Shown here: positions 4,050 through 31,236 of the stretch, piece after piece | Position numbering within the stretch: position 1 is the first letter of the stretch | How the letters are laid out: every line of letters begins with the position of its first letter | NCBI GenBank assembly: GCA_035499655.1 | Contig: DATJYL010000211.1 | Coordinates: 1 to 32,341 of the forward strand | Origin: Pirellulales bacterium | GTDB lineage: Bacteria > Planctomycetota > Planctomycetia > Pirellulales > JADZDJ01 | Length of the DNA stretch: 32,341 bases | Direction of reading: 5' to 3' | Made by a program: the position numbers and the translations under genes | Notes under the pieces: model-generated | Database searches by the model: none | What the model was told of the DNA's origin: nothing | What the model saw: only the letters and a program-made list of their open reading frames with translations

Positions 4050-5249
4050 TTACAGCAACAACACGTCGACCGCGTCGCCGGCGGCATAAATTTTCTCGCC
4101 GGCCGGAAAAATCGCCAGTGCATTCGCGCCGGCAAAGCCGCGCAAATCGGCCGAACCCTGCCACGCTTTGGGCTCGACCAGCCAACCCTCGGCCGACGCG
4201 ATAGCCACCGCCGGCCAGTACGTAGGCCGGTCGCTCCGCTGTCGGAACTCGGCCGTTAATTTGGCCGGCTGCGTGCGCTGCGGCGGCTCCCAATGCCTGC
4301 CCGCGAGGCGTGCTATCGCCGGCTTTACGAACAGTTCGAAACACACCAGGCTGCTCAGCGGATTCCCCGGCACGCCGAAGACCAACGTCGAATTTTTCGC
4401 CACGCCGAACCACAACGGCTTGCCGGGTTTCAAATTTACCTTGTGAAATACCTGTCTCACGCCCAGTTCGGTCAATCCGGCGGGGACTAAATCGAGCACG
4501 CCGGCCGAGACGCCGCCGGAAATCACGAGCACGTCGCTTTGTAAACCGGCCTGAAAACATTTTCGCAGTTCGGCCACCTCGTCGCGCGCAATTCCCAGAT
4601 CGTGCGGTGTCGCCCCAGCCTTCCGCACGGCCGTCGCCAGCAGCGGACCGTTGGCATTGCGAATTTGGCCTGTCGCCGGTTGCTGATCGGCGGGAACCAA
4701 TTCGTTCCCCGAAGAAACAATTGCCACTTGCACGGGCGGAATGGCATGGAGCCGGGCCCGCCCCACTTCGGCCAGCAAACCGATTTCTGCCGGGCCCAAT
4801 TCCACGCCGCTGTGCAGGACGATATCCCCCCGCCGCAGCGATTTGCCGCGGCGCATGATGTTTTGGCCGGCGCGAAAATGCTCGTCGTGAATATCGACTA
4901 CGTCACTTCTAGCCCGTGTCCGTTCCACCATCACCACGGCATCCGCTCCCTCGGGAAGGGGCGCGCCGGTCATGATGCGCGTGCAACAACCGGGAATGAT
5001 TTTGCGCGTGGGAACCGCACCCGCCGTTACTTCTTCCAGCACGCTCAGCTTGGCCCGGCCATCGGCCAAATCAGCGGCCAACACCGCGTAGCCATCGACC
5101 ATTGATTTATCGTGCGGCGGACTGTCGATGTCGCTGGTGACATCTTCGGCCAATACCAAACCCGAAGCCTCTGCCAGTGGCACTTCGCCCGGCGGTTTGG
5201 GCCGCGCGTTTTCGAGAACGAAACTCAGCGCTTCGGCGACAGAAAGCAT
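4050..5249 (-). CDS. moeA: Molybdopterin molybdenumtransferase MoeA
   Basis: A 399-residue cytoplasmic enzyme that inserts molybdate into adenylylated molybdopterin to give molybdenum cofactor. Seen: KSMVDGYAV near residue 49, TGAPLPEGADAVVMVE near 93, SSGNELV near 179, the MPT-binding signature SGGVSAG near 242, KPGKPLWFG near 273 and GVPGNPLSS near 292, followed by the small C-terminal beta domain. Length fits the family. The ATG lies two bases after the stop of the upstream amidotransferase gene, implying coupling. The cofactor could serve the molybdenum hydroxylase encoded at 10358-13087; this link is inference. No Moco riboswitch is visible upstream. Confidence 0.95.
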   Translation of the reverse strand: MLSVAEALSFVLENARPKPPGEVPLAEASGLVLAEDVTSDIDSPPHDKSMVDGYAVLAADLADGRAKLSVLEEVTAGAVPTRKIIPGCCTRIMTGAPLPEGADAVVMVERTRARSDVVDIHDEHFRAGQNIMRRGKSLRRGDIVLHSGVELGPAEIGLLAEVGRARLHAIPPVQVAIVSSGNELVPADQQPATGQIRNANGPLLATAVRKAGATPHDLGIARDEVAELRKCFQAGLQSDVLVISGGVSAGVLDLVPAGLTELGVRQVFHKVNLKPGKPLWFGVAKNSTLVFGVPGNPLSSLVCFELFVKPAIARLAGRHWEPPQRTQPAKLTAEFRQRSDRPTYWPAVAIASAEGWLVEPKAWQGSADLRGFAGANALAIFPAGEKIYAAGDAVDVLLL

Positions 5250-7778: not shown

Positions 7779-9224
7779 TCAGGCCAGGGCCGGCAGACGC
7801 TTTTTGCGGCGGCCCGGCTTCTTGGCCGCCGCGGAGCCTTTTGCTGTGGCGCGTTTCGCGGGCTTGCCATGTGCAGTGGTTTTGCCGTTGGCGGCGGCAC
7901 TTGCAGATCTTCCGTTCGTGGCGGCCTTCGACATTTTTCCGTTCCATGCGGCTTTTGTAGATTTGCCATTCAGCGAGGTTTTCGGCGCCCGGTTTCCTTT
8001 CGCAGTCTTGGTTTTTTTCGGCGGCAATGCACAGTATGTGCCCGGGAAGGCGGCGTACAGGGCGGCGCAGCGCACTAAATGCTCGATGGGCACGCTATCG
8101 TTGACCGTGTGGGCCACATCTTCGGCGGCGGGGCCGAAGCCCACGCAGGGGATGCCGAACATGCCGGCAATCGAAACGCCGTTGGTGCTGAAGGTCCAGC
8201 GATCGACAATCGGCGGCTTGCCGAACAGCGATTTGTGCGCATCGACGGCGGCCCGCACTTGGGGTGCGTCTTCTTCTTCGCACCAACTTGGGAAGTATTT
8301 ATCGGTGGGGTAGGTGAGGCCGGTGTAGGCTTTTTCGGCGTAGGTGAGCAATTCGACCTTGGCCTCCACGCCGGCGCGTTTGACGGCGTCGCGCACTTCC
8401 TTGAGGGCCTGTTCTTTTGTTTCGCCGACGGTCAAGCGGCGATCGAGCTGGATGAAGGCCGCTCCGGGCACGGCACACCGACTGGGCGTTTGGCAATCGA
8501 TGTAGGAAACCGTCACCGTGCCATTGCCGAGGAACTTGTTCTTTTTCAGGCGTTTGTGCAATTTTTCGATTTCCCCGACGATCCGCGCCGCCTTGTAGAC
8601 GGCGTTATCGCCTTTTTCTGGCATCGACCCGTGGCAACTTTTTCCCAGCACGGTAATGCCGATTTCCATCCGCCCACGCTGGCCGCGCAGGACTTTGCAA
8701 TTGGTGGAATCGGTAATCACGACGCACTCGGGCCGAATTTTTTCCTCCTGCACGATGTATTGCCAACACAAACCATCGCAATCTTCTTCCATGACCGTGA
8801 AGGTTAACAGCAGCGACCAATCGTCGCTGTTCAAACCCAGGTCTTTGATGATTTTCGTGGCGTACACCATCGCCGGCACGGCCCCTTTTTGGTCGCCGGC
8901 GCCGCGTCCCCAGACCAGTCCTTTTTCCACCTTGCCGGTAAACGGATCGTGCTTCCATTCTGCGGGGTTGCCGACGTCGACGGTGTCGATGTGCGCATCG
9001 ATGGCCACGAGCCGGGGGCCTGTGCCGACCTGTACCAGCAGGCTGCCGAGGCCGTCGGTCCAAATTTTATCGGCCGCGCCGAGCAGTTCGACCTGCTGGC
9101 GAATGCGATCGATGACGCTCTTTTCCTTGCCGCTTAACGATTGAATGGCCACGATGTCGCGCAAAAGGTCGACCATGGGTTGTTCGTACTGTTTGGCCTG
9201 GGCCAGAATTGCTGCATGATCCAC
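7779..9224 (-). CDS. ygeY: YgeY-type M20 metallohydrolase with Lys/Ala-rich tail
   Basis: M20-family amidohydrolase of the YgeY group, encoded near selenium-dependent molybdenum hydroxylases. Using the GTG at 9222-9224 it has 481 residues. That start has GGAG eight bases upstream, and the alternative ATG at 9296 has no clear ribosome site. Metal ligands are visible as H78 and D80 (DAHIDTVD), D111 (GRGAGDQKG) and E146/E147 (MEEDCDG). The first 400 residues match the length of E. coli YgeY (403). The last 81 residues are an extra tail rich in Lys, Ala, Ser and NGK words (for example SLNGKSTKAAWNGKMSK), resembling histone-H1-like tails. The gene is downstream of carbamate kinase. The substrate is uncertain; an ureido or amino-acid product of purine breakdown is plausible. 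Confidence 0.88.
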   Translation of the reverse strand: MDHAAILAQAKQYEQPMVDLLRDIVAIQSLSGKEKSVIDRIRQQVELLGAADKIWTDGLGSLLVQVGTGPRLVAIDAHIDTVDVGNPAEWKHDPFTGKVEKGLVWGRGAGDQKGAVPAMVYATKIIKDLGLNSDDWSLLLTFTVMEEDCDGLCWQYIVQEEKIRPECVVITDSTNCKVLRGQRGRMEIGITVLGKSCHGSMPEKGDNAVYKAARIVGEIEKLHKRLKKNKFLGNGTVTVSYIDCQTPSRCAVPGAAFIQLDRRLTVGETKEQALKEVRDAVKRAGVEAKVELLTYAEKAYTGLTYPTDKYFPSWCEEEDAPQVRAAVDAHKSLFGKPPIVDRWTFSTNGVSIAGMFGIPCVGFGPAAEDVAHTVNDSVPIEHLVRCAALYAAFPGTYCALPPKKTKTAKGNRAPKTSLNGKSTKAAWNGKMSKAATNGRSASAAANGKTTAHGKPAKRATAKGSAAAKKPGRRKKRLPALA

Positions 9225-9301
9225 AGTTGATTCTCCGTTGGGTGGTAAAATTATGTGTCGATAATGTGAGTGTCTTGGTGGTACGGCAAACTTCATTCAC
9301 A

Positions 9302-9323
9302 AACCGACCGCTGGCGGTCGGTT
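9302..9323. repeat. Perfect palindrome between the carbamate kinase and ygeY genes
   Basis: AACCGACCG and CGGTCGGTT form a 9-base-pair stem with a CTGG loop. On the minus strand only a few T residues follow, so it may be a weak terminator, an RNA-stabilising hairpin or a mobile palindrome. Confidence 0.55.
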
Positions 9324-9368
9324 ACCGACGATAAAGTCATCGGCTTGGATGAGAATTTTTCTGGCACC

Positions 9369-10319
9369 TCAGCCCCTCACAATCCGTGTGCCCACTTTGC
9401 CGGCGATCGCTTGTTTGATTTTCTCGCAGGAGGTAATCAAAACCTGCGAGGTGGCTTGCGGCGTTCGTTCCAAAAACTCGACTCCGCCTTCGACTTTTGG
9501 CCCCATCGAGCCGGCCGGAAACTGCCCGTCCCGGAGCATTTCGCGGGCCTCGCCCACCGACATCTGCTTGATGGGCCTGGTTTGCGGGGTACCAAAGTGC
9601 TGCTGAACGTAATCCACGCCCGTCAAATACGCCAGCATGTCGGCCTGCAGTCCGAGCGCCAGCAACGCGGAGGTGCGGTCTTTGTCGATCACAGCTTCCA
9701 CGCCGGCGAATTGTCCATCCTTGCCTTGCACGACAGGAATTCCGCCGCCGCCGCAAGCCACGATCGATTGCCCGGCCTGCACGAGGGAGCGGATGACGTC
9801 CATTTCCACAATGTCGCGTGGCAAGGGCGAAGCCACGACTCGCCGCCAACCGCGACCGGCATCTTCGACCATTAACCAGCCATCGTTCTTCATGTGTTTT
9901 GCCGCCTGCTCGCGCGACATGAAAGGGCCAACCGGCTTGGAGGGCTTGGAAAAGGCGGCGTCTTCCCGCGAGACGCGCACCGTGGTGATAATGGTGCTGC
10001 ATACCCGCGGCTGGCCGCGCGAAGCCAGCTCGTTCATTAAGCACTGGGAAATCATGTAACCCATGCCCGCCTGCGTGTCGGCGACAACGGTATCTAGGGG
10101 GAGCGGATAGACATGGTGCCGCGCCGCAATTTCCACCCGCCGCATCACGTTGCCCACTTGCGGACCATTGCCGTGGGTAATGACGAGTTGATGGCCGGCC
10201 AAAATCAAATCGGCCAGGGGACGAATGGCGGCGCGGGTGGTGGAGTATTGCTGGGGAATGTTCCCTTCTTGCCCCGGAGGACTGACCGCATTACCACCCA
10301 AAGCAACAACGATGAGCAT
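9369..10319 (-). CDS. arcC: Carbamate kinase
   Basis: A 316-residue cytoplasmic kinase that makes ATP and ammonium carbamate from carbamoyl phosphate and ADP. Seen: VVALGGNAVSP at the N-terminus, THGNGPQVGNV near residue 49, the activity-linked PLDTVVADTQAGMGYMI near 75, ACGGGGIPVV near 190 and DKDRTSALLALGL near 213. Length is right for the family. There is no arginine deiminase or ornithine carbamoyltransferase next to it. Its place between a YgeY-type hydrolase and a molybdenum hydroxylase matches E. coli yqeA, where it would harvest ATP from carbamoyl phosphate released by purine or ureide breakdown. That role is inference from context. Confidence 0.92.
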   Translation of the reverse strand: MLIVVALGGNAVSPPGQEGNIPQQYSTTRAAIRPLADLILAGHQLVITHGNGPQVGNVMRRVEIAARHHVYPLPLDTVVADTQAGMGYMISQCLMNELASRGQPRVCSTIITTVRVSREDAAFSKPSKPVGPFMSREQAAKHMKNDGWLMVEDAGRGWRRVVASPLPRDIVEMDVIRSLVQAGQSIVACGGGGIPVVQGKDGQFAGVEAVIDKDRTSALLALGLQADMLAYLTGVDYVQQHFGTPQTRPIKQMSVGEAREMLRDGQFPAGSMGPKVEGGVEFLERTPQATSQVLITSCEKIKQAIAGKVGTRIVRG

Positions 10320-10357
10320 GCCGCCCGTCCCCTTGTGACTGAACCTTCGAAGATGAG

Positions 10358-13087
10358 TTACGCCTTTTCGCGAGTGGCTGCCGACTTCCGCGGCCCGGGC
10401 GTCAATATCGCCTTGGCCGCCGGCGAATCTTTCATGGGCAGCACGGTCCGCTCGATGCCGTCAAACGCCCGCAAGGCGCCTGCCACGGCGGGCGCGGTCG
10501 GGACCAAACCTAACTCGCCCACCCCCCGTGCTCCATACGGACATTCCGGATCGGGTGTTTCGATGAACATGACTTCCAATTCCGGCATTTGGTGCGCCCG
10601 GAGCACGCGGATGGATTTGATCGTGTCGGTGACGATGTGTCCGCCCTCGCAGACAAAATCTTCGGTTAATGCGTAGCCCAATCCCATGTGCAGCGAGCCT
10701 TCGATTTGGCCGGCGCAGAGCACGGGGTTCATGACCCGGCCCACGTCGTGTGCGGCGATTACTTTTTGAATGCGGCCCTGGTCGTCCAAAATTACGACCT
10801 GCGTGGCAAAGCCGTAAGTCAGGTGTGTTTTCGGCTCGTCCACGTGTGCGCCGAGTTTGTGGGTGTAATTGCAAATCCACTCGCCGCGATATTCCCGGCC
10901 GATTAAGTCGGCCAGTGTTTTGCCGCTGTCCAAATCGGCCTTGAGTTTTTTGGCGGCTTCGATGACGGCATTACAACTGAGCATGGTGCCGCGGCTGCCG
11001 GTGGTTTGACCGCAATCCAAATCCACCGCCGTGTCCGTCAGCGCGGTAAAAGTTTCGGGGGGCAGGCCGGTTTCTTCCACGGCGGTTTGAATGGTTACCG
11101 TGAACAGCCCTTGGCCCATTTCGGTATAACCGGTGCGAATGCTGACTTTGCCGTCGGGCTCTACCCGCAGCATCGCCTTGCCCGGATCGGGCATGCCGTT
11201 GCCGATGCCGCAATTTTTAATGCCGCAGGCAATGCCGGCGTATTTTGCGCCGCGATACGCATCTTTCACCGCTAGGAGGGTTTCTTTCAAGCCGAACGGC
11301 TTGTCGAGTTTTTGGCCCGTGGCGAAGCGATCGCCTTGTTGCAAAATGTTTCGCCAGCGGATTTCCCAGCCGTCGATGCCGACTTGCTTCGCCAGACGAT
11401 CCAGCAATTGCTCCACGGCAAAGGCCGATTGATTGGCCCCGAAGCCGCGCATCGCCCCGCACGGCGGATTATTCGTATACACGGCCAGGGCTTCGATGTC
11501 GATGGCCGGAACCCGGTACGGCCCGCAAGCATGGCCTGCCGCCCGTTCCAACACCTTAGCTCCGACACTGGCGTAGGCCCCCTTGTCGCCTTTGATGCGT
11601 GCCCGAACCGCGGTAATCCGACCGTCCGCGTCAGATCCGATTTTCACGTGCATGCGGATGGCGTGGCGCTTGGGATGCAGCCGAAAACTTTCGTCGCGTG
11701 TGAGCGTACACTTCACCGGCTTGCCGCACAGCACGGCGGCCAGCGCGGTTTGGGCTTGAATGCTCATGTCTTCCTTGCCGCCGAATGCGCCGCCGTTTTG
11801 CACCAACTCCACGTCGACGCGGTCGCGCGGCCAACCCAACACGCTGGCAATCTGCCGCTGGTCGTCAAAAATTCCCTGTCCTTGCGAAAGGACTTTTATT
11901 TTTGTTACCAGGTTGCCGCGGTGTGCGTGACCATTGCCGTTGCTGTGTGCGGCCGGCTCGTGCTCAGCTTGCGCTTCAATGGGCATTGCAAGGCACGCTT
12001 CGGGCTCCAAAAACATGTGCTCGATCCGTTGCGTTTGGAACGTGTCTTCCACAACGTGTGCCGAGTGGGCAAACGCCTCCTCCGGATTGCCCCGCACAAT
12101 CGCCGACTTGGATAACAAATTCCCTTTGGCGTGAATTTGCGGCGCATCGGGTTTTAGTGCTTCGTCCACCGTGGTGAGCGGCGTGCGCACTTCATAATCG
12201 ACGACAATTTGTTCCGCGGCCTTGCGGGCCGTGTATTGATTGTCCGCCACCACCACGGCGATGATGTCTCCCACGCAGCGTGTTTCCTCGCCAATGGCCA
12301 CGAGAATGGGCCAATCTTTCACGATCAGCCCCACGTACCGGTCCCCCGGCACATCGGCCGCGGTAATCACGCGCTCCACGCCGGCCACGGCCAGCGCCGC
12401 AGAGGCATCAATGCCTTTGACCAATGCCCGCGGATGCTCGCTGAACTTCATCGCGGCGTACATTTGGCCGGGCACGGTAATGTCGTCGATGTAGCGGAAA
12501 TCGCCCAGCACCAAATCGTGGGCTTTGTATTTTTTTAGGGCCGTGCCGACTCGCCCGCTGGTGTCGGTTGTCCGCGGCGCTTCACCTCGAGTCACGCGGG
12601 CCAATTCTTCCACGGCGTCTACGATTTTTACATAGCCGGTGCAGCGGCACAGATGGGCGCGCAAGTCGTGGGCGATTTCTTCCCGCGTCGGATGTTGATT
12701 TTGCTCGGTCAGCGCGTGGGCCCGCATGGCCATGCCTGGTATGCAAAAGCCGCACTGCACGCCGCCGCTGCAGGCAAACGACTGGGCAATTTGCTGCCGT
12801 CGCTCTTCGGGCAATCCTTCCAGGGTGAGCAGTGTTTTGCCGGCGACTTGGGCGGTCTTCATGGTGCAACTGAGCCGCGGCTTGCCATCGATCAAAAGGG
12901 TGCAGCAGCCGCACGATGCTTGCGGCTCGCAACCGTTCTTTAGCGAGATGAAGCCGAAATCTTCGCGCAGCACGGCCAGCAAAGAGCGGTCATCCACCGC
13001 GGCTTCGACTTCCCGTCCGTTCAGCGTGAACCGGACCGTTTCGCTAGCGCTTGACAATGGTTCCGAAGTAACGACGCTAGCGCACAT
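10358..13087 (-). CDS. xdhD: Fused [2Fe-2S] / molybdopterin hydroxylase, xanthine dehydrogenase type (XdhD-like)
   Basis: A 909-residue molybdenum hydroxylase with small and large subunits fused and no FAD domain. Residues 18-165 carry two [2Fe-2S] sites: C53, C59, C62 and C74 (GCEPQASCGCC, LSC), then C113, C116, C147 and C149 (QCGFC, CRCTGY). From about 180 comes the molybdopterin part, with GGAFGGKED (432-440), RGFG (547-550), a Q-rich TGYTEMGQGLFT near 652 and the catalytic glutamate E858 in GARGVGELG. A His/Asn/Gly-rich insert (about 371-391) is extra. With YgeY, carbamate kinase and YgfK neighbours it fits the selenium-dependent hydroxylase group, where selenium is a labile ligand; no in-frame TGA suggests selenocysteine. 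The substrate is probably a purine. Confidence 0.9.
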   Translation of the reverse strand: MCASVVTSEPLSSASETVRFTLNGREVEAAVDDRSLLAVLREDFGFISLKNGCEPQASCGCCTLLIDGKPRLSCTMKTAQVAGKTLLTLEGLPEERRQQIAQSFACSGGVQCGFCIPGMAMRAHALTEQNQHPTREEIAHDLRAHLCRCTGYVKIVDAVEELARVTRGEAPRTTDTSGRVGTALKKYKAHDLVLGDFRYIDDITVPGQMYAAMKFSEHPRALVKGIDASAALAVAGVERVITAADVPGDRYVGLIVKDWPILVAIGEETRCVGDIIAVVVADNQYTARKAAEQIVVDYEVRTPLTTVDEALKPDAPQIHAKGNLLSKSAIVRGNPEEAFAHSAHVVEDTFQTQRIEHMFLEPEACLAMPIEAQAEHEPAAHSNGNGHAHRGNLVTKIKVLSQGQGIFDDQRQIASVLGWPRDRVDVELVQNGGAFGGKEDMSIQAQTALAAVLCGKPVKCTLTRDESFRLHPKRHAIRMHVKIGSDADGRITAVRARIKGDKGAYASVGAKVLERAAGHACGPYRVPAIDIEALAVYTNNPPCGAMRGFGANQSAFAVEQLLDRLAKQVGIDGWEIRWRNILQQGDRFATGQKLDKPFGLKETLLAVKDAYRGAKYAGIACGIKNCGIGNGMPDPGKAMLRVEPDGKVSIRTGYTEMGQGLFTVTIQTAVEETGLPPETFTALTDTAVDLDCGQTTGSRGTMLSCNAVIEAAKKLKADLDSGKTLADLIGREYRGEWICNYTHKLGAHVDEPKTHLTYGFATQVVILDDQGRIQKVIAAHDVGRVMNPVLCAGQIEGSLHMGLGYALTEDFVCEGGHIVTDTIKSIRVLRAHQMPELEVMFIETPDPECPYGARGVGELGLVPTAPAVAGALRAFDGIERTVLPMKDSPAAKAILTPGPRKSAATREKA

Positions 13088-13122
13088 GCAGCACCTGTGT
13101 TAACCCTCCACTTCACAGTACA

Positions 13123-13151
13123 ATTTTAGCACTCTGCGCAAGGTCGAACAA
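13123..13151 (-). promoter_or_regulatory. Promoter candidate for the hydroxylase - carbamate kinase - ygeY run
   Basis: On the minus strand TTGTTC (13146-13151) and TAAAAT (13123-13128) are separated by 17 bases, 36 bases upstream of the hydroxylase ATG. Confidence 0.5.
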
Positions 13152-13330
13152 CCCAAACCGACATCTTGGGCCGCATCTTGATTGAATCGGCAGGCTGCCT
13201 GTTGTGATATAATGGCCAGGTCTGATTCGTAACCGAGACGGTTTTATGATATAACACCAAAGAGGTAGTTGGCTCGCCCTCTTTTTACTCTGTAGAGGGG
13301 GAAAGTCTTGGGTTCCTTGCGAATTTTGGT

Positions 13331-13522
13331 ATGAAAAACAAGCTTTTATCTGCGTTGCTGCTTTTGGTCATCGTCGGCTGGCTTGCAGATCATGTCCTGC
13401 AAACGTACCGAAATAACAGTTACGAGCAATCGTTGTCCGAACTGCAAATGCAAATCGATGTTCGCACCGCTAAATTACATGAGCGATTGGACGGCCATGG
13501 CGCTGGACCGAAAGGAACGTAA
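13331..13522 (+). CDS. Small membrane protein, first of a tandem pair
   Basis: A 63-residue protein that I cannot name. Residues 4-24 form a hydrophobic segment (LLSALLLLVIVGWLADHVL), followed by a polar, probably helical tail (YEQSLSELQMQIDVRTAKLHE). The stop codon abuts the ATG of the next small gene (TAAATG), and both share a hydrophobic start, a GW(L/W)xDH motif and a short charged tail, so they look like duplicates or partners. It lies between the divergent hydroxylase and ygfK-like genes. The ribosome site is weak. Confidence 0.6.
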   Translation: MKNKLLSALLLLVIVGWLADHVLQTYRNNSYEQSLSELQMQIDVRTAKLHERLDGHGAGPKGT

Positions 13523-13732
13523 ATGGGCGCGCGAAAGGGGATAAAGTTCTCGATCCGTGATCTGTTGCTTTGGACGCTGCTGGTGGCGCTCTGCGCCGGC
13601 TGGTGGGTGGATCATCGTCGGATGAATTCCAAGCTGGCGGACTATCCAATTCGAATATCGCAAAAGAAATTCGAGTTGATGATGATTGACTTTCAACTAA
13701 AGTTGCACCCCAACGACTTTAAATTTCTCTAG
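13523..13732 (+). CDS. Small membrane protein with planctomycete FSxRDLL motif
   Basis: A 69-residue protein. After a basic start it has FSIRDLLLWTLLVALCAGWW (about 9-28) and then VDHRRM. Short proteins and N-termini with this FS(L/I)RDLLW-hydrophobic-GWW-D-R pattern are common in planctomycetes; their function is unknown. The tail (KFELMMIDFQLKLHP) is predicted helical. It directly follows the first small gene without a gap and ends before the ygfK-like promoter, so the pair probably forms its own transcript. Confidence 0.65.
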   Translation: MGARKGIKFSIRDLLLWTLLVALCAGWWVDHRRMNSKLADYPIRISQKKFELMMIDFQLKLHPNDFKFL

Positions 13733-13736
13733 ATCG

Positions 13737-13766
13737 TTCACATCTGGCGATCACTCCGCTTATAAT
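13737..13766 (+). promoter_or_regulatory. Promoter candidate for the ygfK-like gene
   Basis: TTCACA (13737-13742) and TATAAT (13761-13766) are 18 bases apart, about 67 bases before the ygfK-like ATG. Confidence 0.55.
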
Positions 13767-13775
13767 TCACTCGCC

Positions 13776-13833
13776 GGCTGTCTGCCGTGCTTTTTCTCCT
13801 TCTGCCAGCCGCCTACCGCCTACTGCTTCCCGC
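13776..13833 (+). repeat. Phrase repeat (GCCTACCGCCTACTGC) in the ygfK-like leader
   Basis: A pyrimidine-rich stretch of CTGCC, GCCTAC and CTACTGC words runs right up to the ATG and leaves no recognisable Shine-Dalgarno site. Similar words fill 23559-23631. Confidence 0.5.
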
Positions 13834-15873
13834 ATGGCTGAACTTATTCCCGCACCGTTTGCTGATCTGGTGAGCCGGCTGTATTTGGAGCCGGCGGCGC
13901 AAGGCACGCTGTTCACGCTGCCGAAGCGGCGCTGGTATGTGCCGCAGCCGGACAGTAAGTGCGATTTCAGCGTGCGGTTCCACGGCAAGCTGGCCGGCAA
14001 CCCAGCCGGGCCTGCCGCCGGGCCGCACACGCAAATGGCCCAAAACTTGTTGCTTAGTTACGTGGCCGGGGCCCGCATTTTGGAACTGAAAACGGTGCAG
14101 GTGAACGACGAGTTGACCATCGGCCGGCCGTGCATCGACATTACCAACGTCGGCTACAACATCGAGTGGTCGCAAGAGCTGCGGGTCGACAATTCGCTGC
14201 GTGAATATGTGGCTGGAGCCATGCTCATCGAAATGTTCCGCCGCGATCCCGTGTTTGCCGGCGACGCTTTACTGGGCACGGCGGGGGAAGCGATTTTAGA
14301 CTTGAGCGTTGGCTACGACCTGGCTGGCATTAAAAGCGACAAGGTGCAGCGCTTTCTCGACGGCATGCGCGACGCCGGCCGAGTGATCGAACAGCTTCGG
14401 GCAGAAATCCCCGCCCAATACACACTGGCCCGCGAGCTGCAATATCCAACGCAGTTGTCGAACACGCTGACGCTTTCCACGTTTCACGGTTGCCCGGCCG
14501 ACGAGATCGAGCGCATTTGCGAGTTTCTGATCCAGGAACGCGACCTGGACGTGATCGTCAAAATGAATCCGCCCATGCTCGGCAAAGAGCGGCTCGAGCA
14601 TTTGCTGCACGATGAGTTGGGCTACACCGAACTCACTGTGAATCCCACGGCCTACACTTCCGGCCTGCAATTTGACGAGGCGGTGCAATTGGTCGATCGT
14701 CTGACGCGTGTGGCCCAGCGTCGCGGCCGGCGCTTCGGCTGCAAATTCAGCAACACGCTGGAAGTGCTCAACCACCGCACATTCTTCACGCCTGACAACA
14801 AAATTCAGTATCTCTCCGGCCAGCCGCTGTATGTGATCACGCTGACGCTGACCGACATGTTCCGCCAGGCTGTTGGCCCGCACGTGCCGATCAGTTTCAG
14901 CGCCGGCATCGATCAGGCGAATTTCCCCCACGCCGTCGCTTGTGGCTTTGTGCCGGTGACCGTCAGCACTGATTTATTGCGGATTGGCGGTTACGGCCGC
15001 ATTTCCACCTATTTGCAATCGCTGGAAAAAGCGATGCAGGCCATCGGCGCCGCAAACATCAACGACTATGTTTTAAACGCCTTCGGCCAAGGCGATGCCG
15101 CACAAACTCGTGTAAATGCTGAAACCCCTCACCCCTCACCACTCACCTCCCACGCCTCACTCCTCAACACCACCATCGCCGCCGCCAAAGCCCGAGCCGA
15201 CGTCCGCTACCGGGCCGAGAAAAACCGCAAGGCGCCCACGCGCATCGATTCGCTATTGGAAACATTCGATTGCATCACCTGCGATAAGTGCCTGCCGGTG
15301 TGCCCGAACGCGGCCAACTTCACGTATCCCACTCCGATCGTGGCGTTTGATTACCACGACTTGCTCATCGATCCTCCCGGCGCCGTGCATCAGGCCAAAG
15401 CAGCACGGCGGTTCGAAATCACCGAGGCGATGCAAATCGCCTGTTACAGCGATTTCTGCAACGAGTGCGGCAACTGTGATACGTTTTGCCCCGAATACGG
15501 CGGCCCATACATTAAAAAGCCCACGTTTTACGGCAGCCGGCAATCGTGGGCAGCCGCCGCGCCGCGTGACGGTTTTTTGATTGAGCGAAATCGGCAAACC
15601 GCGCGCATTCACGGACGCTTCCAAGGCGCCGTTTATGAACTTGCTTGGCTGGCAGTGATGGAGAAGTACGAGTTTGCCGACAGTATCCTGCGGGCCACCT
15701 TCAACGCCGCCGATCACACGCTGATCAAAATCGAACCCCATATGCCCTTAATGGCCCAGCACCGGCTAGACCTGGGCGTATATCACACACTGCGACATTT
15801 GCTGCACGGCGTGCTGGACCGACGGTACATCAACCAGATCAACGCCGCCGCCGAGATTTCACAATTTGTTTAA
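13834..15873 (+). CDS. ygfK: YgfK-like iron-sulfur protein lacking the flavin/NAD(P)H domain
   Basis: A 679-residue protein matching the N- and C-terminal parts of YgfK, annotated elsewhere as a putative selenate reductase subunit and linked to selenium-dependent hydroxylases and anaerobic urate breakdown. Residues 1-420 form the dihydropyrimidine-dehydrogenase-like part (STFHGCPADEIERI near 215, KMNPPMLGKERL near 243, KFSNTLEV near 304, SFSAGIDQANFP near 354). Two [4Fe-4S] motifs follow: C480, C483, C486, C490 and C542, C545, C548, C552. E. coli YgfK has about 1030 residues with a flavin and nucleotide-binding domain in between; here only a linker of about 55 residues is present. Residues about 430-446 (TPHPSPLTSHASLL) are encoded by a CCCCTCACC-type repeat. 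Electron transfer would need a separate flavoprotein. Confidence 0.85.
   Translation: MAELIPAPFADLVSRLYLEPAAQGTLFTLPKRRWYVPQPDSKCDFSVRFHGKLAGNPAGPAAGPHTQMAQNLLLSYVAGARILELKTVQVNDELTIGRPCIDITNVGYNIEWSQELRVDNSLREYVAGAMLIEMFRRDPVFAGDALLGTAGEAILDLSVGYDLAGIKSDKVQRFLDGMRDAGRVIEQLRAEIPAQYTLARELQYPTQLSNTLTLSTFHGCPADEIERICEFLIQERDLDVIVKMNPPMLGKERLEHLLHDELGYTELTVNPTAYTSGLQFDEAVQLVDRLTRVAQRRGRRFGCKFSNTLEVLNHRTFFTPDNKIQYLSGQPLYVITLTLTDMFRQAVGPHVPISFSAGIDQANFPHAVACGFVPVTVSTDLLRIGGYGRISTYLQSLEKAMQAIGAANINDYVLNAFGQGDAAQTRVNAETPHPSPLTSHASLLNTTIAAAKARADVRYRAEKNRKAPTRIDSLLETFDCITCDKCLPVCPNAANFTYPTPIVAFDYHDLLIDPPGAVHQAKAARRFEITEAMQIACYSDFCNECGNCDTFCPEYGGPYIKKPTFYGSRQSWAAAAPRDGFLIERNRQTARIHGRFQGAVYELAWLAVMEKYEFADSILRATFNAADHTLIKIEPHMPLMAQHRLDLGVYHTLRHLLHGVLDRRYINQINAAAEISQFV
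15124..15168 (+). repeat. Phrase repeat (CCCCTCACCCCTCACC) inside the ygfK-like gene
   Basis: A 45-base C/T/A-only stretch of CCCCTCAC and CACTCAC words, in frame within the coding sequence at codons 431-445. It lies exactly where the domain linker begins. It resembles the purine/pyrimidine-biased phrases of the gaps between genes. Confidence 0.6.
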
Positions 15874-15939: not shown

Positions 15940-17142
15940 CTACCCTTTTCTGAAGCGCGCCGCTTCTTCCGCGCCGCCCGTGGCATTGCCGGCGCTGTAC
16001 GAATGCGCGCCGGCGCCGGCCAGCCGCCCTTCGTGGACAATTAGATATTTCTCGCGGATCGGTTTACCGGCGAACCAGCATTCCAAAATTTCGCGCGTGC
16101 CGGCGGCATAACGCGCCTGGGCCGACAAGCTCGAACCGGAAATGTGCGGCGTCATGCCATGATGTGGCATGGTCCGCCACGGATGATCCTGCGGCGCCGG
16201 CTGCGGAAACCAAACATCGCCCGCATATCCGGCCAATTGCCCGCTTTCCAAAGCCCGCACGACGGCGTCCCGGTCGCAAATTTTTCCGCGGGCGGTATTG
16301 ATCAGGTAAGCGCCGCGCTTCATTTTGCCGAGTAACTTGTCGTTAAACAGATGCACAGTGTCCGGATACAACGGGCAGTTAATCGTCACCACGTCGCACA
16401 CTTTCACCAGCGATTCGACATCGGCATGAAACGTGAGATTCAGCTCTCGCTCGACGCTCTCGGGCAGCCGGTGCCGATCGGTGTAGTGCAGCTTCACGTC
16501 GAATGGCTTCAGCCGCCACAGCACCGCCGTGCCAATCCGCCCGGCGGCCACGGTGCCGACAGTCATCCCTTCCAAATCGTACGACCGGGCCACGCAATCG
16601 GCGATGTTCCAACCCTTCTTCACGACCCATTGATACGACGGGATGTAATTGCGGACCAAACCCAAAATCATCATCACCACGTGCTCGGCCACGCTGATGC
16701 TGTTGCAGTACGTGACTTCGGCCACGGTCAGCTTATGATCGATGGCCGCCTGCAAATCGACGTGATCGGATCCAATGCCGGCCGTGATCGCCAGCTTCAA
16801 CTTCGGCGCTTTGGCAATCCGCTCCGCCGTGATATAGGCGGGCCAAAACGGTTGCGAAATGACAATCTCGGCATCGGGCAATTCTTTATCGAGCCGGGAG
16901 CCCGCGCCGTCTTTGTCGGACGTGACGACCAAATGATGGCCCATTTTTTCCAAAAACTTGCGCAGCCCCAGCTCGCCAGACACAGAGCCGAGTAATTGCC
17001 CCGGCTGGAAATCGATGCCGCCGGGCGAAGGCAGCGTTTGACCGTCGGGATAACGCTCCAATTTGGGCAGCCCATCACGGGCGTAAGATTTCGGATACCC
17101 GTCGACCGGGTCGTCGTACAAAACGCAAACAATTTTAGCCAT
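15940..17142 (-). CDS. fdh: NAD-dependent formate dehydrogenase (metal-free, D-2-hydroxyacid dehydrogenase family)
   Basis: A 400-residue cytoplasmic enzyme that oxidises formate to CO2 with NAD+. It follows the Pseudomonas sp. 101 formate dehydrogenase nearly end to end, as I remember that sequence. Seen: VCVLYDDPVDGYPKSYARD at the N-terminus, PFWPAY (98-103), TYCNSISVAEHVVMMIL (144-160) with N147, nucleotide-binding AAGRIG (199-204), D222 for NAD, and catalytic R285 (NTARGK), Q314 and H333 (QPAPQDHPWRT, TPHISG). The C-terminus AHSYSAGNATGGAEEAARF is also typical. It needs no molybdenum. It is convergent with the ygfK-like gene and lies downstream of the DUF190 gene. It could dispose of formate from one-carbon or purine breakdown; that is inference. 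Confidence 0.96.
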   Translation of the reverse strand: MAKIVCVLYDDPVDGYPKSYARDGLPKLERYPDGQTLPSPGGIDFQPGQLLGSVSGELGLRKFLEKMGHHLVVTSDKDGAGSRLDKELPDAEIVISQPFWPAYITAERIAKAPKLKLAITAGIGSDHVDLQAAIDHKLTVAEVTYCNSISVAEHVVMMILGLVRNYIPSYQWVVKKGWNIADCVARSYDLEGMTVGTVAAGRIGTAVLWRLKPFDVKLHYTDRHRLPESVERELNLTFHADVESLVKVCDVVTINCPLYPDTVHLFNDKLLGKMKRGAYLINTARGKICDRDAVVRALESGQLAGYAGDVWFPQPAPQDHPWRTMPHHGMTPHISGSSLSAQARYAAGTREILECWFAGKPIREKYLIVHEGRLAGAGAHSYSAGNATGGAEEAARFRKG

Positions 17143-28470: not shown

Positions 28471-31236
28471 ATGCAAATTCTGAAAGTGCAGAACTTGCGT
28501 GGACCGAATATCTGGGCGAACTTTCCCGTACTGGAAGCGTGGGTCGACCTAGGCGCGCTGAAGGACTGCGCCTCGGACGAGCTACCTGGCTTCAATGAAC
28601 GGCTGAAGGCGTTTTTGCCGTCTCTGATCGAGCATCGCTGCAGTGTGGGGGAGCGCGGCGGCTTTTTCGAACGTCTGCGTCGCGGCACGTACTTGGCACA
28701 CATTCTGGAACATGTGGTTCTGGAACTACAAACTTTAGCAGGCAGCGATTGCGGATTTGGCCGCACCCGGGAATCGAACGAAGAGGGCGTATACAAAGTT
28801 GCCATTGAGTATCAGGAAGAATCGCTGTGCCGCGCGGCGTTGGACGCGGGGCGCGAGTTATGTTTGGCGGCGGTGAACGATCAACCGTTCGACGTCGAAG
28901 GAACGGTGAAGCAGTTGCGTTCGCTCTACGAAAACGCGCGCCTTGGTCCGAGCACGGGCGCGATCGTCAATGCCGCGCTACAGCGTGGCATTCCGATGCG
29001 GCGGCTCAATGGTGAAAGTTTGATTCAACTTGGCTGGGGTTCTAAACAGCGGCGCATTCTGGCGTCTGAAACTGATCGCACGACAGCGATGGCTGAAACC
29101 ATTGCTCAAGACAAAGATTTAACTCGCTCGTTGCTGCACTCCATAGCTGTGCCGGTTCCCGAAGGCCGGCCTGTGGTAAGCGCTGCTGACGCGTGGGAAG
29201 CGGCCAGCGAAATCGGCTTGCCCGTGGTGGTGAAACCGCGCTACGGTAATCAAGGCCGGGGCGTAGCCACTAATTTGCGCACGCGGGAGCAAGTTACCGA
29301 AGCGTATACAGCGGCCCGGGAAGAAAGCAGAAACATTATTGTCGAAAAGCATGCCGCCGGGGGCGATTTTCGACTGTTGATTGTGGGCGATAAGTTAGTT
29401 GCCGCCGCTCAGCGCCAGGCCGCCCAGGTGACCGGGGATGGTCAACACAGCATCCAAGCACTCGTCGACGAAGTGAATGGTGATCCGCGGCGTGGCGAAG
29501 ATCACGCCACCTGTTTGAGCAAAATTCCATTGGATGCGGTTTCGCTGCAAGTGTTGACCGAACAAGGTTACACGCTTGATTCCATTCCGCCGGCCGGACA
29601 GCAGGTGCTGATCCGCCGCAATGCAAATTTGAGCACCGGCGGCACAGCGGCCGACGTCACCGATTTTGTGCACCCTGAAATTGCCGCCCGTGCCATCGAA
29701 GCGGCCCGCATGGTGGGACTGGACGTGGCCGGCGTGGACGTAGTTTGCGAAAACATTGGGCGACCGTTGGAGCAGCAAGGTGGGGTGATTGTCGAAGTGA
29801 ACGCAGCGCCTGGTTTGCGAATGCACCTGCAACCATCCAAAGGTCAGCCGCAACCTGTCGGCGAAACGATTATTTCCACAATGTTCCCCGCAGGGGAAAA
29901 TGGGCGCATTCCGGTGGTGGCCGTCACCGGGGTGAACGGCAAAACTACCACGACGCGGTTGATAGCACACATCGTGCGGCAGACCGGCCGCAAAGTGGGC
30001 ATGACCTGCACCGAAGGGATTTTCATCGACGACCGTCGGCTGGAAACAGGCGATTGCAGCGGTCCGCAAAGCGCGCAAAAACTGTTAATGAATCCCGGCG
30101 TGGACGCCGTCGTGTTGGAAACGGCGCGAGGCGGAATTCTTCGCGCCGGCTTGGCCTACGATCATTGCGACGTGGCCGTGGTCACAAACATCGGCGAGGG
30201 AGATCACCTGGGCTTAAACGACATCGAAACCGTCGATAAATTGGCGCGCGTCAAGCGGGTTCCGGTGGAAGCGGTATCCAAAGAAGGAACAGCGGTGCTC
30301 AATGCCGCCGATCCGCTGACGGCCGAAATGGCCAAGTTTTGCCCCGGCCGCGTGTTGTTTTTTGCGATCGATCCGCAACATCCTGTGATGGTGCGGCACC
30401 GCGCTGCCGGCGGCCGCGCCGTCACGGTGAGCGACGGAAACATTATTTTGGCCGAGGGCGAAAACGAAGTGCCGTTGATGCCCATCAACCAAGTTCCTCT
30501 GACTCACGGCGGTCGGGTCGGCTTTCAAGTGGAAAACACGTTGGCTTCTGTCGGTGCGGCGTGGAGCTTGGGGTATGCGCGGGAGATGATTCGCGCCGGG
30601 TTGGAATCGTTCGCCGCTGATTTGGATCATGTGCCGGGCCGGTTTAACCTACTGGAAGTTCATGGCGCGGCGGTAGTGGTGGATTACGGCCACAATCCCT
30701 CGTCGCTGATGGCCATGTTGGAAGCGTTGAAAGTGTTCCCACACCAAAATCGCATTGCCGTATACACGGCGGCGGGGGACCGGCGCGATGTTGACATGGT
30801 TCGCCAAGGTGAATTGCTGGGCCATGCGTTTGATCGCGTGATTTTGTACGAAGATCATTACGTGCGTGGCCGCAATCCCGGCGAAATCATGGGCCGCTTC
30901 CGTGAAGGATTGACGCGCGGAAAACGTGTGGAACTCATTGAAGAAATATTTGGCGCCGTGAAGGCCATTGAAGTAGCCTTGTCGACGCTCCAGCCCGGTG
31001 ATTTGGTGCTGCTGCAGGCCGATACCGTGGACGAAACGGTGGATTACGTGCGCCGCTATCTGGCCGCTCATCAGTCGGCGCGGGAAGTGAATTTGCCGGA
31101 GGCGCTGGCGACGGCTCCATTGGCCACCCCGGTGTTGCCAGCCGGCGCTGGAGAATCGCTTGCCGCAGCGGACCCGCGGATGGCATCGGGAACTGCGGAA
31201 TCGCAATCGGTGGCAGTTGCGGCATTTGCCGGGTAG
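28471..31236 (+). CDS. cphA: Cyanophycin synthetase
   Basis: A 921-residue enzyme that builds cyanophycin, a storage polymer with a poly-aspartate backbone and arginine side chains, using ATP without ribosomes. Residues 1-160 are the CphA N-domain (MQILKVQNLRGPNIW, HILEHVVLELQ). The ATP-grasp domain for aspartate-arginine addition spans about 200-470 (VVVKPRYGNQGRGV 252-265, NLSTGGTAADV 386-396, VEVNAAPGLRMH 441-452). The Mur-ligase-like domain follows, with the P-loop GVNGKTTTT (487-495), GEGDHLGLND near 577 and VDYGHNPSSL. A tail of about 45 residues, rich in Ala and Pro, ends the protein. It is close to other CphA1 lengths (about 870-900). No cyanophycinase is in the window. Confidence 0.97.
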   Translation: MQILKVQNLRGPNIWANFPVLEAWVDLGALKDCASDELPGFNERLKAFLPSLIEHRCSVGERGGFFERLRRGTYLAHILEHVVLELQTLAGSDCGFGRTRESNEEGVYKVAIEYQEESLCRAALDAGRELCLAAVNDQPFDVEGTVKQLRSLYENARLGPSTGAIVNAALQRGIPMRRLNGESLIQLGWGSKQRRILASETDRTTAMAETIAQDKDLTRSLLHSIAVPVPEGRPVVSAADAWEAASEIGLPVVVKPRYGNQGRGVATNLRTREQVTEAYTAAREESRNIIVEKHAAGGDFRLLIVGDKLVAAAQRQAAQVTGDGQHSIQALVDEVNGDPRRGEDHATCLSKIPLDAVSLQVLTEQGYTLDSIPPAGQQVLIRRNANLSTGGTAADVTDFVHPEIAARAIEAARMVGLDVAGVDVVCENIGRPLEQQGGVIVEVNAAPGLRMHLQPSKGQPQPVGETIISTMFPAGENGRIPVVAVTGVNGKTTTTRLIAHIVRQTGRKVGMTCTEGIFIDDRRLETGDCSGPQSAQKLLMNPGVDAVVLETARGGILRAGLAYDHCDVAVVTNIGEGDHLGLNDIETVDKLARVKRVPVEAVSKEGTAVLNAADPLTAEMAKFCPGRVLFFAIDPQHPVMVRHRAAGGRAVTVSDGNIILAEGENEVPLMPINQVPLTHGGRVGFQVENTLASVGAAWSLGYAREMIRAGLESFAADLDHVPGRFNLLEVHGAAVVVDYGHNPSSLMAMLEALKVFPHQNRIAVYTAAGDRRDVDMVRQGELLGHAFDRVILYEDHYVRGRNPGEIMGRFREGLTRGKRVELIEEIFGAVKAIEVALSTLQPGDLVLLQADTVDETVDYVRRYLAAHQSAREVNLPEALATAPLATPVLPAGAGESLAAADPRMASGTAESQSVAVAAFAG

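Follow-up and report, generated by a model that had tools for sequence, protein, structure and literature searches.

A 32,341-nucleotide stretch of a Pirellulales genome (contig DATJYL010000211.1 of assembly GCA_035499655.1; the window) carries four genes, encoding a YgeY-family hydrolase, a carbamate kinase (ArcC), a single-chain molybdenum hydroxylase (XDH) and a short form of YgfK. We consider it likely that a complete reductive urate-degradation pathway is split in two here, with this locus as one half, and that the molybdenum of the hydroxylase carries sulfur instead of selenium. In this genus the genes probably form a selenium-free, ferredoxin-linked variant of the pathway, distributed over at least two loci, which operates without YgeX. 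The features of the locus are as follows.

7779..9296, minus strand: YgeY-family M20 hydrolase, 505 amino acids, a predicted ureido-group hydrolase (PRK13004, 527.1 bits; cut-off 321)
9369..10319, minus strand: carbamate kinase ArcC/YqeA, 316 amino acids (PRK12352, 330.7 bits; cut-off 266)
10358..13087, minus strand: XDH, single-chain molybdenum hydroxylase, 909 amino acids (TIGR03311, 944.5 bits; cut-off 830.45)
13834..15873, plus strand: short YgfK, 679 amino acids (TIGR03315, 370.7 bits; cut-off 835.3; aligned with E. coli YgfK)
15271..15489, plus strand: two cysteine motifs of short YgfK (C480, C483, C486, C490; C542, C545, C548, C552)

All four genes are supported by NCBIfam and Pfam. YgeY, ArcC and XDH lie in tandem, separated by gaps of 72 and 38 bp, and YgfK is divergent from them at a distance of 746 bp. 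Apart from a low-complexity, Lys/Ala-rich C-terminal tail, YgeY resembles its counterparts closely, with 54% identity to E. coli YgeY over 396 amino acids, 66% to the copy in a genome from another family of the same order (G286) and 86% to that of a congener (G179). ArcC is 41% identical to E. coli YqeA and scores 338.8 bits with the arcC model TIGR00746, just below its cut-off of 358.25. The congener has the same four genes in the same order (locus L088) at 82-90% identity, indicating that the arrangement is not due to chance. An initial annotation of this DNA had placed the four genes together, with exact coordinates, and had grouped them with the anaerobic urate clusters of E. coli and clostridia; both statements hold.

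The rest of the pathway was found elsewhere in the genome and in its relatives. Among 117 relatives, an XDH above the TIGR03311 cut-off occurs in three genomes only: that of the window (G000; 4.54 Mb in 244 contigs), G179 and G286, which are 97, 95 and 93% complete, respectively. On contig C241 of G000, an SsnA gene (391 bits, cut-off 455.5; 39% full-length identity to E. coli SsnA) directly follows a gene for a pyridoxal-phosphate (PLP) enzyme, here called PLP2, and is divergent from a second such gene, PLP1, which is truncated by the contig end. SsnA scores below the cut-off in G179 and G286 too. In G179, PLP1 is followed by YgeW (603.2 bits, cut-off 500), and the arrangement of SsnA-PLP2 divergent from PLP1-YgeW recurs in five further planctomycete loci (L126, L129, L130, L131 and L133). 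Hydantoinase is above the cut-off in all three genomes, the G000 copy lying on contig C126 (504.9 bits, cut-off 393.25). In G286, a single 17 kb contig carries a MocA-like gene, XDH, YgeY, a YgeW-like gene (304 bits, cut-off 453), carbamate kinase, an SsnA-like gene (402 bits, cut-off 444), PLP1, PLP2 and short YgfK. The search that gave 603.2 bits for the YgeW of G179 gave 280 bits for the YgeW-like protein of G286. The nearest named relatives of both XDH and PLP1 are Phycisphaerae, in keeping with a planctomycete source of the DNA.

The initial annotation had described the locus as a reduced core set from which YgeW, YgeX, SsnA, hydantoinase, YqeB and SelD are absent. None of these was found among the 19 window open reading frames (ORFs) scanned, 10 against NCBIfam and Pfam and 9 further against Pfam only. 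Genome-wide, however, the absence does not extend to SsnA and hydantoinase, and with YgeW beside PLP1 in the congener the notion of a reduced set falls.

By homology to the E. coli enzymes described in PMC12507026, the following sequence of reactions may be proposed. XDH would dehydroxylate urate to 2,8-dioxopurine (yanthine), and short YgfK would reduce the ring, drawing its electrons from a ferredoxin-like donor. SsnA and hydantoinase would then open the two rings. YgeW would split one ureido group by phosphorolysis, yielding carbamoyl phosphate from which ArcC would make ATP, and YgeY would hydrolyse the other ureido group. The resulting 2,3-diaminopropionate would be broken down by PLP1 (CysK-like) and/or PLP2 (threonine-synthase-like) in place of YgeX. 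The gene content and linkage, the genome-wide co-occurrence of PLP1 with YgfK, the failure to find SelD, YqeB or YgeX in three genomes, the lost domains and the kept purine-site residues are observations; each reaction of this scheme, the sulfur ligand, the ferredoxin donor, the presence of YgeW in G000 and the roles of PLP1 and PLP2 are what we infer.

XDH comprises [2Fe-2S] and molybdenum domains (Pfam Fer2_2, Ald_Xan_dh_C, MoCoBD_1 and MoCoBD_2) and has no flavin adenine dinucleotide (FAD) domain. The earlier description of it as XdhD-like is loose, its identity to E. coli XdhD being 26%: the window protein belongs to TIGR03311, whereas E. coli XdhD scores 2122.8 bits with TIGR03313 and only 300.1 bits with TIGR03311. 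We aligned 25 cluster-type sequences, comprising the window XDH, 22 full-length XDHs of loci containing PLP1, and those of G179 and G286. Residues E439, R515, F549 and E858 of the window XDH align with purine-site residues of bovine xanthine oxidase, which we take to be E802, R880, F914 and the catalytic E1261. Equivalents of the first three are kept in 24 of the 25 sequences and that of E1261 in all 25; the sole exception, from locus L174, groups with E. coli XdhD in the tree. Glu606 of E. coli XdhD lies beside an insert and has no assignable position in the cluster XDHs.

Phylogenetic analysis placed the window XDH in starred sets made up of cluster XDHs only (2, 5, 6, 7 and 15 rows), and the set of all 24 such cluster XDHs has a support of 92. 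The tree, of 40 rows, was a quick one; its branches are long, its midpoint root is weak, and it has no row for the enzymes of three further relatives (L057, L058 and L073). Two further cluster XDHs, of L174 and L177, group with E. coli XdhD. A paralogue from the window genome itself (L094) and the L157 enzyme form the next branch out, and a second own-genome paralogue (L095), like the enzymes of nine relatives, is separate from the cluster XDHs. On this grouping we reject an ordinary aldehyde oxidoreductase, and it bears out the earlier separation of this hydroxylase from the ordinary planctomycete molybdenum hydroxylases compared.

We found no SelD above the 125-bit cut-off in G000 (best E value 2.7e-11), G179 or G286; SelD is above the cut-off in 38 of the 117 relatives. 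The YqeB model (TIGR03309) found no match in the same three genomes and detected the E. coli control. At 93-97% completeness, a triple chance loss is unlikely for each of SelD, YqeB and YgeX. Mutants of Clostridioides difficile in selD and yqeB fail on urate, as reported in PMC11448449, which implies that the bacteria represented by G000, G179 and G286 use urate without selenium, if they use it at all. Beside two Phycisphaerae cluster XDHs there is an XdhC-type maturation gene (XdhC_rel_AOR, 275 and 251 bits, cut-off 350) with no match to the YqeB model. By that annotation's own criterion, the selenium dependence put forward in the initial annotation is contradicted by the SelD and YqeB results in the three genomes; YqeC was not searched. 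Selenium use is patchy in this order. The SelD genes of several relatives (G182, G188, G191, G199 and others) hold one in-frame TGA, presumably marking a selenocysteine-containing SelD.

Short YgfK consists of the N-terminal part known from E. coli YgfK followed by Fe-S motifs, and lacks the FAD/NAD(P)H module that in the E. coli protein separates the N-terminal part from the last Fe-S motifs. Its low TIGR03315 score is explained by this gap, as the best stretch covers profile positions 5-413 and the middle of the profile is missing. The eight cysteines are invariant in the 8 sequences of alignment A3 and coincide with Pfam Fer4 matches; we propose that the two motifs hold two [4Fe-4S] clusters. 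A predicted model of low confidence (mean predicted local distance difference test (pLDDT) score 67.3) resembles dihydroorotate and dihydropyrimidine dehydrogenases, a likeness we treat only as a hint, and a search of the PDB with the YgfK sequence found nothing.

Among loci with an XDH, its FAD subunit was seen in none of the 9 that have a short YgfK and in 7 of the 11 that have a long one (Fisher 0.005), a result inflated by kinship, since 6 of those 7 are from Gammaproteobacteria. This count covers the loci only. It left out L129 (a frame of 417 amino acids) and L174, L187 and L200 (cut by contig ends), and took L177 (contig edge, 1082 amino acids) as long; among the loci left out, the FAD subunit is present in L187 and weakly in L174. 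With neither a FAD module in YgfK nor a FAD subunit of XDH in the locus, the electrons probably come from a ferredoxin-like donor. A comparable situation is described in PMC12507026 for C. difficile, where XdhD lacks the FAD subunit and UacX the FAD domain, and its authors suggest ferredoxin. Short YgfK would be a solution separate from UacX.

As the initial annotation had reported for the locus, YgeX (TIGR03528) is missing: none was detected in G179 or G286, and G000 gave a 19.4-bit trace. A profile search for PLP1 in a collection of 84,980 species yielded 515 confirmed relatives, of which 80 loci were kept. Counting tblastn matches of at least 60 bits, the partners in these loci were PLP2 (33), SsnA (30), XDH (28), YgeW (24), YgfK (23), YgeY (23), carbamate kinase (13), hydantoinase (4), MocA (3) and YgeX (0). 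Two or more partners were present in 38 loci, from 12 phyla by their record titles, and a single partner in 10; the two partners of L193 are weak (81 and 90 bits), and the XDH of L157 is not of the cluster type. No YgeX exceeded the cut-off of 532 bits in any of 38 PLP1-locus genomes, representing 36 of the 38 clustered loci (all except L186 and L193) and, in addition, the single-partner loci L127 and L169; G318 encodes a 349-bit relative and the remainder gave at most 60.5 bits.

PLP1 also tracks YgfK at the level of whole genomes. At E ≤ 1e-50 it occurs in 20 of 179 genomes of the phylum, including all 17 with a listed match to the YgfK N-terminal part (hypergeometric p = 4.5e-21, without kinship correction); as that set consists of the best matches listed, it stands for at least 17 genomes. 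The three genomes with PLP1 and no listed YgfK match are G065, G158 and G161. Contigs of 3 to 19 kb around YgfK were inspected in 16 of the 17 genomes, and PLP1 was present only on that of G037, where the genes run YgfK, carbamate kinase, YgeW, M20 hydrolase, PLP1. In G000, PLP1 and YgfK are on different contigs, suggesting that the co-occurrence mostly does not reflect close linkage.

A predicted structure of PLP1, made with the L130 protein and not that of the window genome (pLDDT 87.3, predicted template modelling score 0.90), adopts a fold-type II PLP fold of the CysK/cystathionine beta-synthase (CBS) group, with a best match of Z 32.9 over 308 residues (root-mean-square deviation 2.7). 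The 50 best structural matches include CmnB (Z 30.1) and SbnA (Z 29.9); SbnA is labelled a diaminopropionate-biosynthesis protein by NCBIfam, and we take CmnB to be one as well. YgeX-type structures are not among these 50, which excludes nothing. In a quick tree of PLP1 sequences, the branches of L153 and L167 were very long, and these two are probably ORFs taken in the wrong frame.

Five loci (L146, L155, L179, L185 and L190) combine PLP1, PLP2, XDH and SsnA with a gene resembling N-carbamoylputrescine amidase (AguB-like; in L146 at L146:16562-17494, 145 bits, cut-off 410), and had no match to YgeW, carbamate kinase or YgeY in the locus. The AguB-like N-carbamoyl amidase is perhaps an alternative means of removing ureido groups. 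PLP1 and PLP2 are thus retained when the enzymes that remove the ureido groups are exchanged, as would be expected if they act last in the pathway. Beyond the window genome, we are evenly divided over a broader proposition: that two fold-type II PLP enzymes, PLP1 with an extra C-terminal part and PLP2, replace YgeX in at least 12 phyla, and that in some planctomycetes lacking SelD the 'selenium-dependent' XDH uses sulfur, in which case the family would not be tied to selenium.

Solitary PLP1 homologues, mostly from Elusimicrobia, precede a gene for a CpXC-domain protein (L171, L175 and L202 by Pfam; L156, L168, L183 and L196 by eye), a conserved setting in which no urate genes were seen. In L175 and L202, a gene with a poly(A)-polymerase/tRNA-nucleotidyltransferase head domain (Pfam) also comes after PLP1.

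A number of observations weigh against the proposed pathway. XDH could as well oxidise purines to urate, and E. coli XdhA and XdhD lack equivalents of E802, R880 and F914 in the same alignment, showing that these purine-site residues fit a purine enzyme but are not required of one. Searches of the loci with E. coli UacT and XanQ revealed no transporter that would fix the substrate. By eye, no pathway gene was recognised around the G000 hydantoinase, which may have another use, and the model search found no YgeW in G000; as the expected place of YgeW is just past the end of contig C241, its loss in an assembly gap is likely. An alternative is that the enzymes act on another N-heterocycle (for instance xanthine only, nicotinate or a hydantoin) and resemble those of urate clusters merely in enzyme class. 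Broad families are involved, molybdenum hydroxylases as well as amidohydrolases, and nicotinate dehydrogenase ranks third among the PDB matches of the window XDH. We nevertheless find such a substrate unlikely, given that the same families come together in 38 of 80 PLP1 loci across 12 phyla and that the purine-site residues, including the catalytic glutamate, are so widely kept in cluster-type XDHs. The 'different substrate' of the initial annotation gained no positive support. That annotation's overall reading, a reduced core built on a selenium-dependent hydroxylase with another substrate, can appeal to an XDH above the cut-off of the 'selenium-dependent XDH' model TIGR03311 and to a YgeY above that of a 'selenium metabolism-linked' model; with SelD and YqeB not found in three nearly complete genomes, and with SsnA, hydantoinase, PLP1 and PLP2 elsewhere in the genome, we give it hardly any credence.

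Also to be set against a selenium-free pathway with PLP1 and PLP2 at its end are data from the wider group. SelD is found in 11 of the 28 genomes whose PLP1 loci have any XDH match, which makes selenium use elsewhere in the group possible, and among the 11 are the genomes of all four Phycisphaerae whose gene order is most similar (L129, L130, L131 and L133). The XdhC-type genes belong to the same larger family as E. coli YqeB, with which they align at 88-128 bits. In 32 of the 80 PLP1 loci, some of them on short contigs, no other pathway gene lies within reach; PLP1 is therefore not exclusive to the pathway, and its family has other settings. PLP1 resembles cysteine synthases in sequence and fold, and its 37% identity to YgeX extends over 46 residues only, which is not a clear likeness. 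With 189.4 bits, PLP2 of G286 exceeds the cut-off of the threonine-synthase model TIGR00260 (167.1) and may be an ordinary threonine synthase. Both proteins could thus be biosynthetic, of cysteine and threonine type, using a product of the pathway or travelling with the cluster, with an unrecognised lyase cleaving diaminopropionate. Their best matches and the solitary PLP1 genes speak for this alternative, but PLP1 follows YgfK through the phylum in 17 of 17 genomes, and both PLP genes sit in clusters whose genomes (38 of 38) have no YgeX above the cut-off, so that we regard a purely biosynthetic role as improbable and retain the breakdown of diaminopropionate by PLP1 and/or PLP2.

The neighbours of the four genes in the window are MoeA, a TrpG/PabA-like amidotransferase, NadA and an NAD-dependent formate dehydrogenase (NCBIfam and Pfam). 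MoeA, NadA and the formate dehydrogenase are unmatched on the congener's contig (L088), which ends ~1.3 kb past YgeY, and we accordingly take the unit to be the four genes. The formate dehydrogenase (15940-17142, minus strand; 712.5 bits, cut-off 329) is convergent with YgfK and ends 66 bp from it; formate is a co-substrate of urate-degrading Enterococcus according to PMC12507026. The MoeA-like molybdenum cofactor gene (4050-5249, minus strand) lies ~2.5 kb from YgeY. Between XDH and YgfK are two tiny tandem ORFs (13331-13522 and 13523-13732, plus strand; 63 and 69 amino acids) with a hydrophobic N-terminal stretch, judged by eye, in a region that aligns loosely with the congener. Further along, at 28471-31236 on the plus strand, a cyanophycin-synthetase-like protein of 921 amino acids has Cyanophycin_syn N-terminal, ATP-grasp and Mur ligase domains (Pfam); in a bacterium possibly living on nitrogen from purines, it might serve nitrogen storage.

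In 2025 the reductive urate pathway was elucidated in E. coli and clostridia, and it has been described for anaerobic, notably gut, bacteria, with YgeX as its last enzyme. We found no report of the present variant in the literature searched on this pathway and on planctomycetes, a search whose scope excluded subscription papers such as the C. sporogenes study. The main text of PMC12507026 makes no mention of planctomycetes or cysteine synthase, and a figure legend there uses PF00291 for YgeX. If the variant works as proposed, the pathway would be present in many more phyla, could be free of selenium and would end in an unrecognised enzyme pair. Annotating a genome as selenium-using from TIGR03311 or YgeY could then be wrong, and different enzymes would be lumped together in surveys that take every PF00291 neighbour for YgeX.

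Compared with the E. coli cluster (ygeW-ygeX-ygeY-hyuA-yqeA / ygfK-ssnA-ygfM-xdhD, as given in PMC12507026), the planctomycete set has in common YgeY, carbamate kinase, SsnA, hydantoinase, the N-terminal and Fe-S parts of YgfK, a molybdenum hydroxylase and, among the two relatives, YgeW in G179 and a YgeW-like protein in G286. It differs in having PLP1 and PLP2 and no YgeX, a YgfK without the FAD/NAD(P)H module, an XDH of another subgroup with no FAD subunit in the locus, no SelD or YqeB, and genes in two or more places. With C. difficile, whose genes are listed in PMC12507026 and PMC11448449 as XdhD, UacX, SsnA, HyuA, UacY, YgeY and YgeX, it shares a hydroxylase without a FAD subunit and a purine-ring reductase without a FAD module. 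Growth of C. difficile on urate needs selD and yqeB, unlike the situation proposed here, and where C. difficile has UacX, UacY and YgeX, the planctomycetes have short YgfK, YgeW/ArcC and PLP1/PLP2. The planctomycete XDH and YgeY pass the models of the selenium-dependent molybdenum hydroxylase system (Haft and Self 2008, PMC2276186), whereas the markers of that system, SelD and YqeB (TIGR03309), were not found in the three genomes. Finally, the predicted fold of PLP1 is like that of the cysteine synthase/CBS family, which includes SbnA and CmnB (Z ~30 over ~300 residues, at 15-28% identity in the structural matches listed), with ~70-85 extra C-terminal residues unmatched; unlike that family, PLP1 is found in urate clusters as well as alone.

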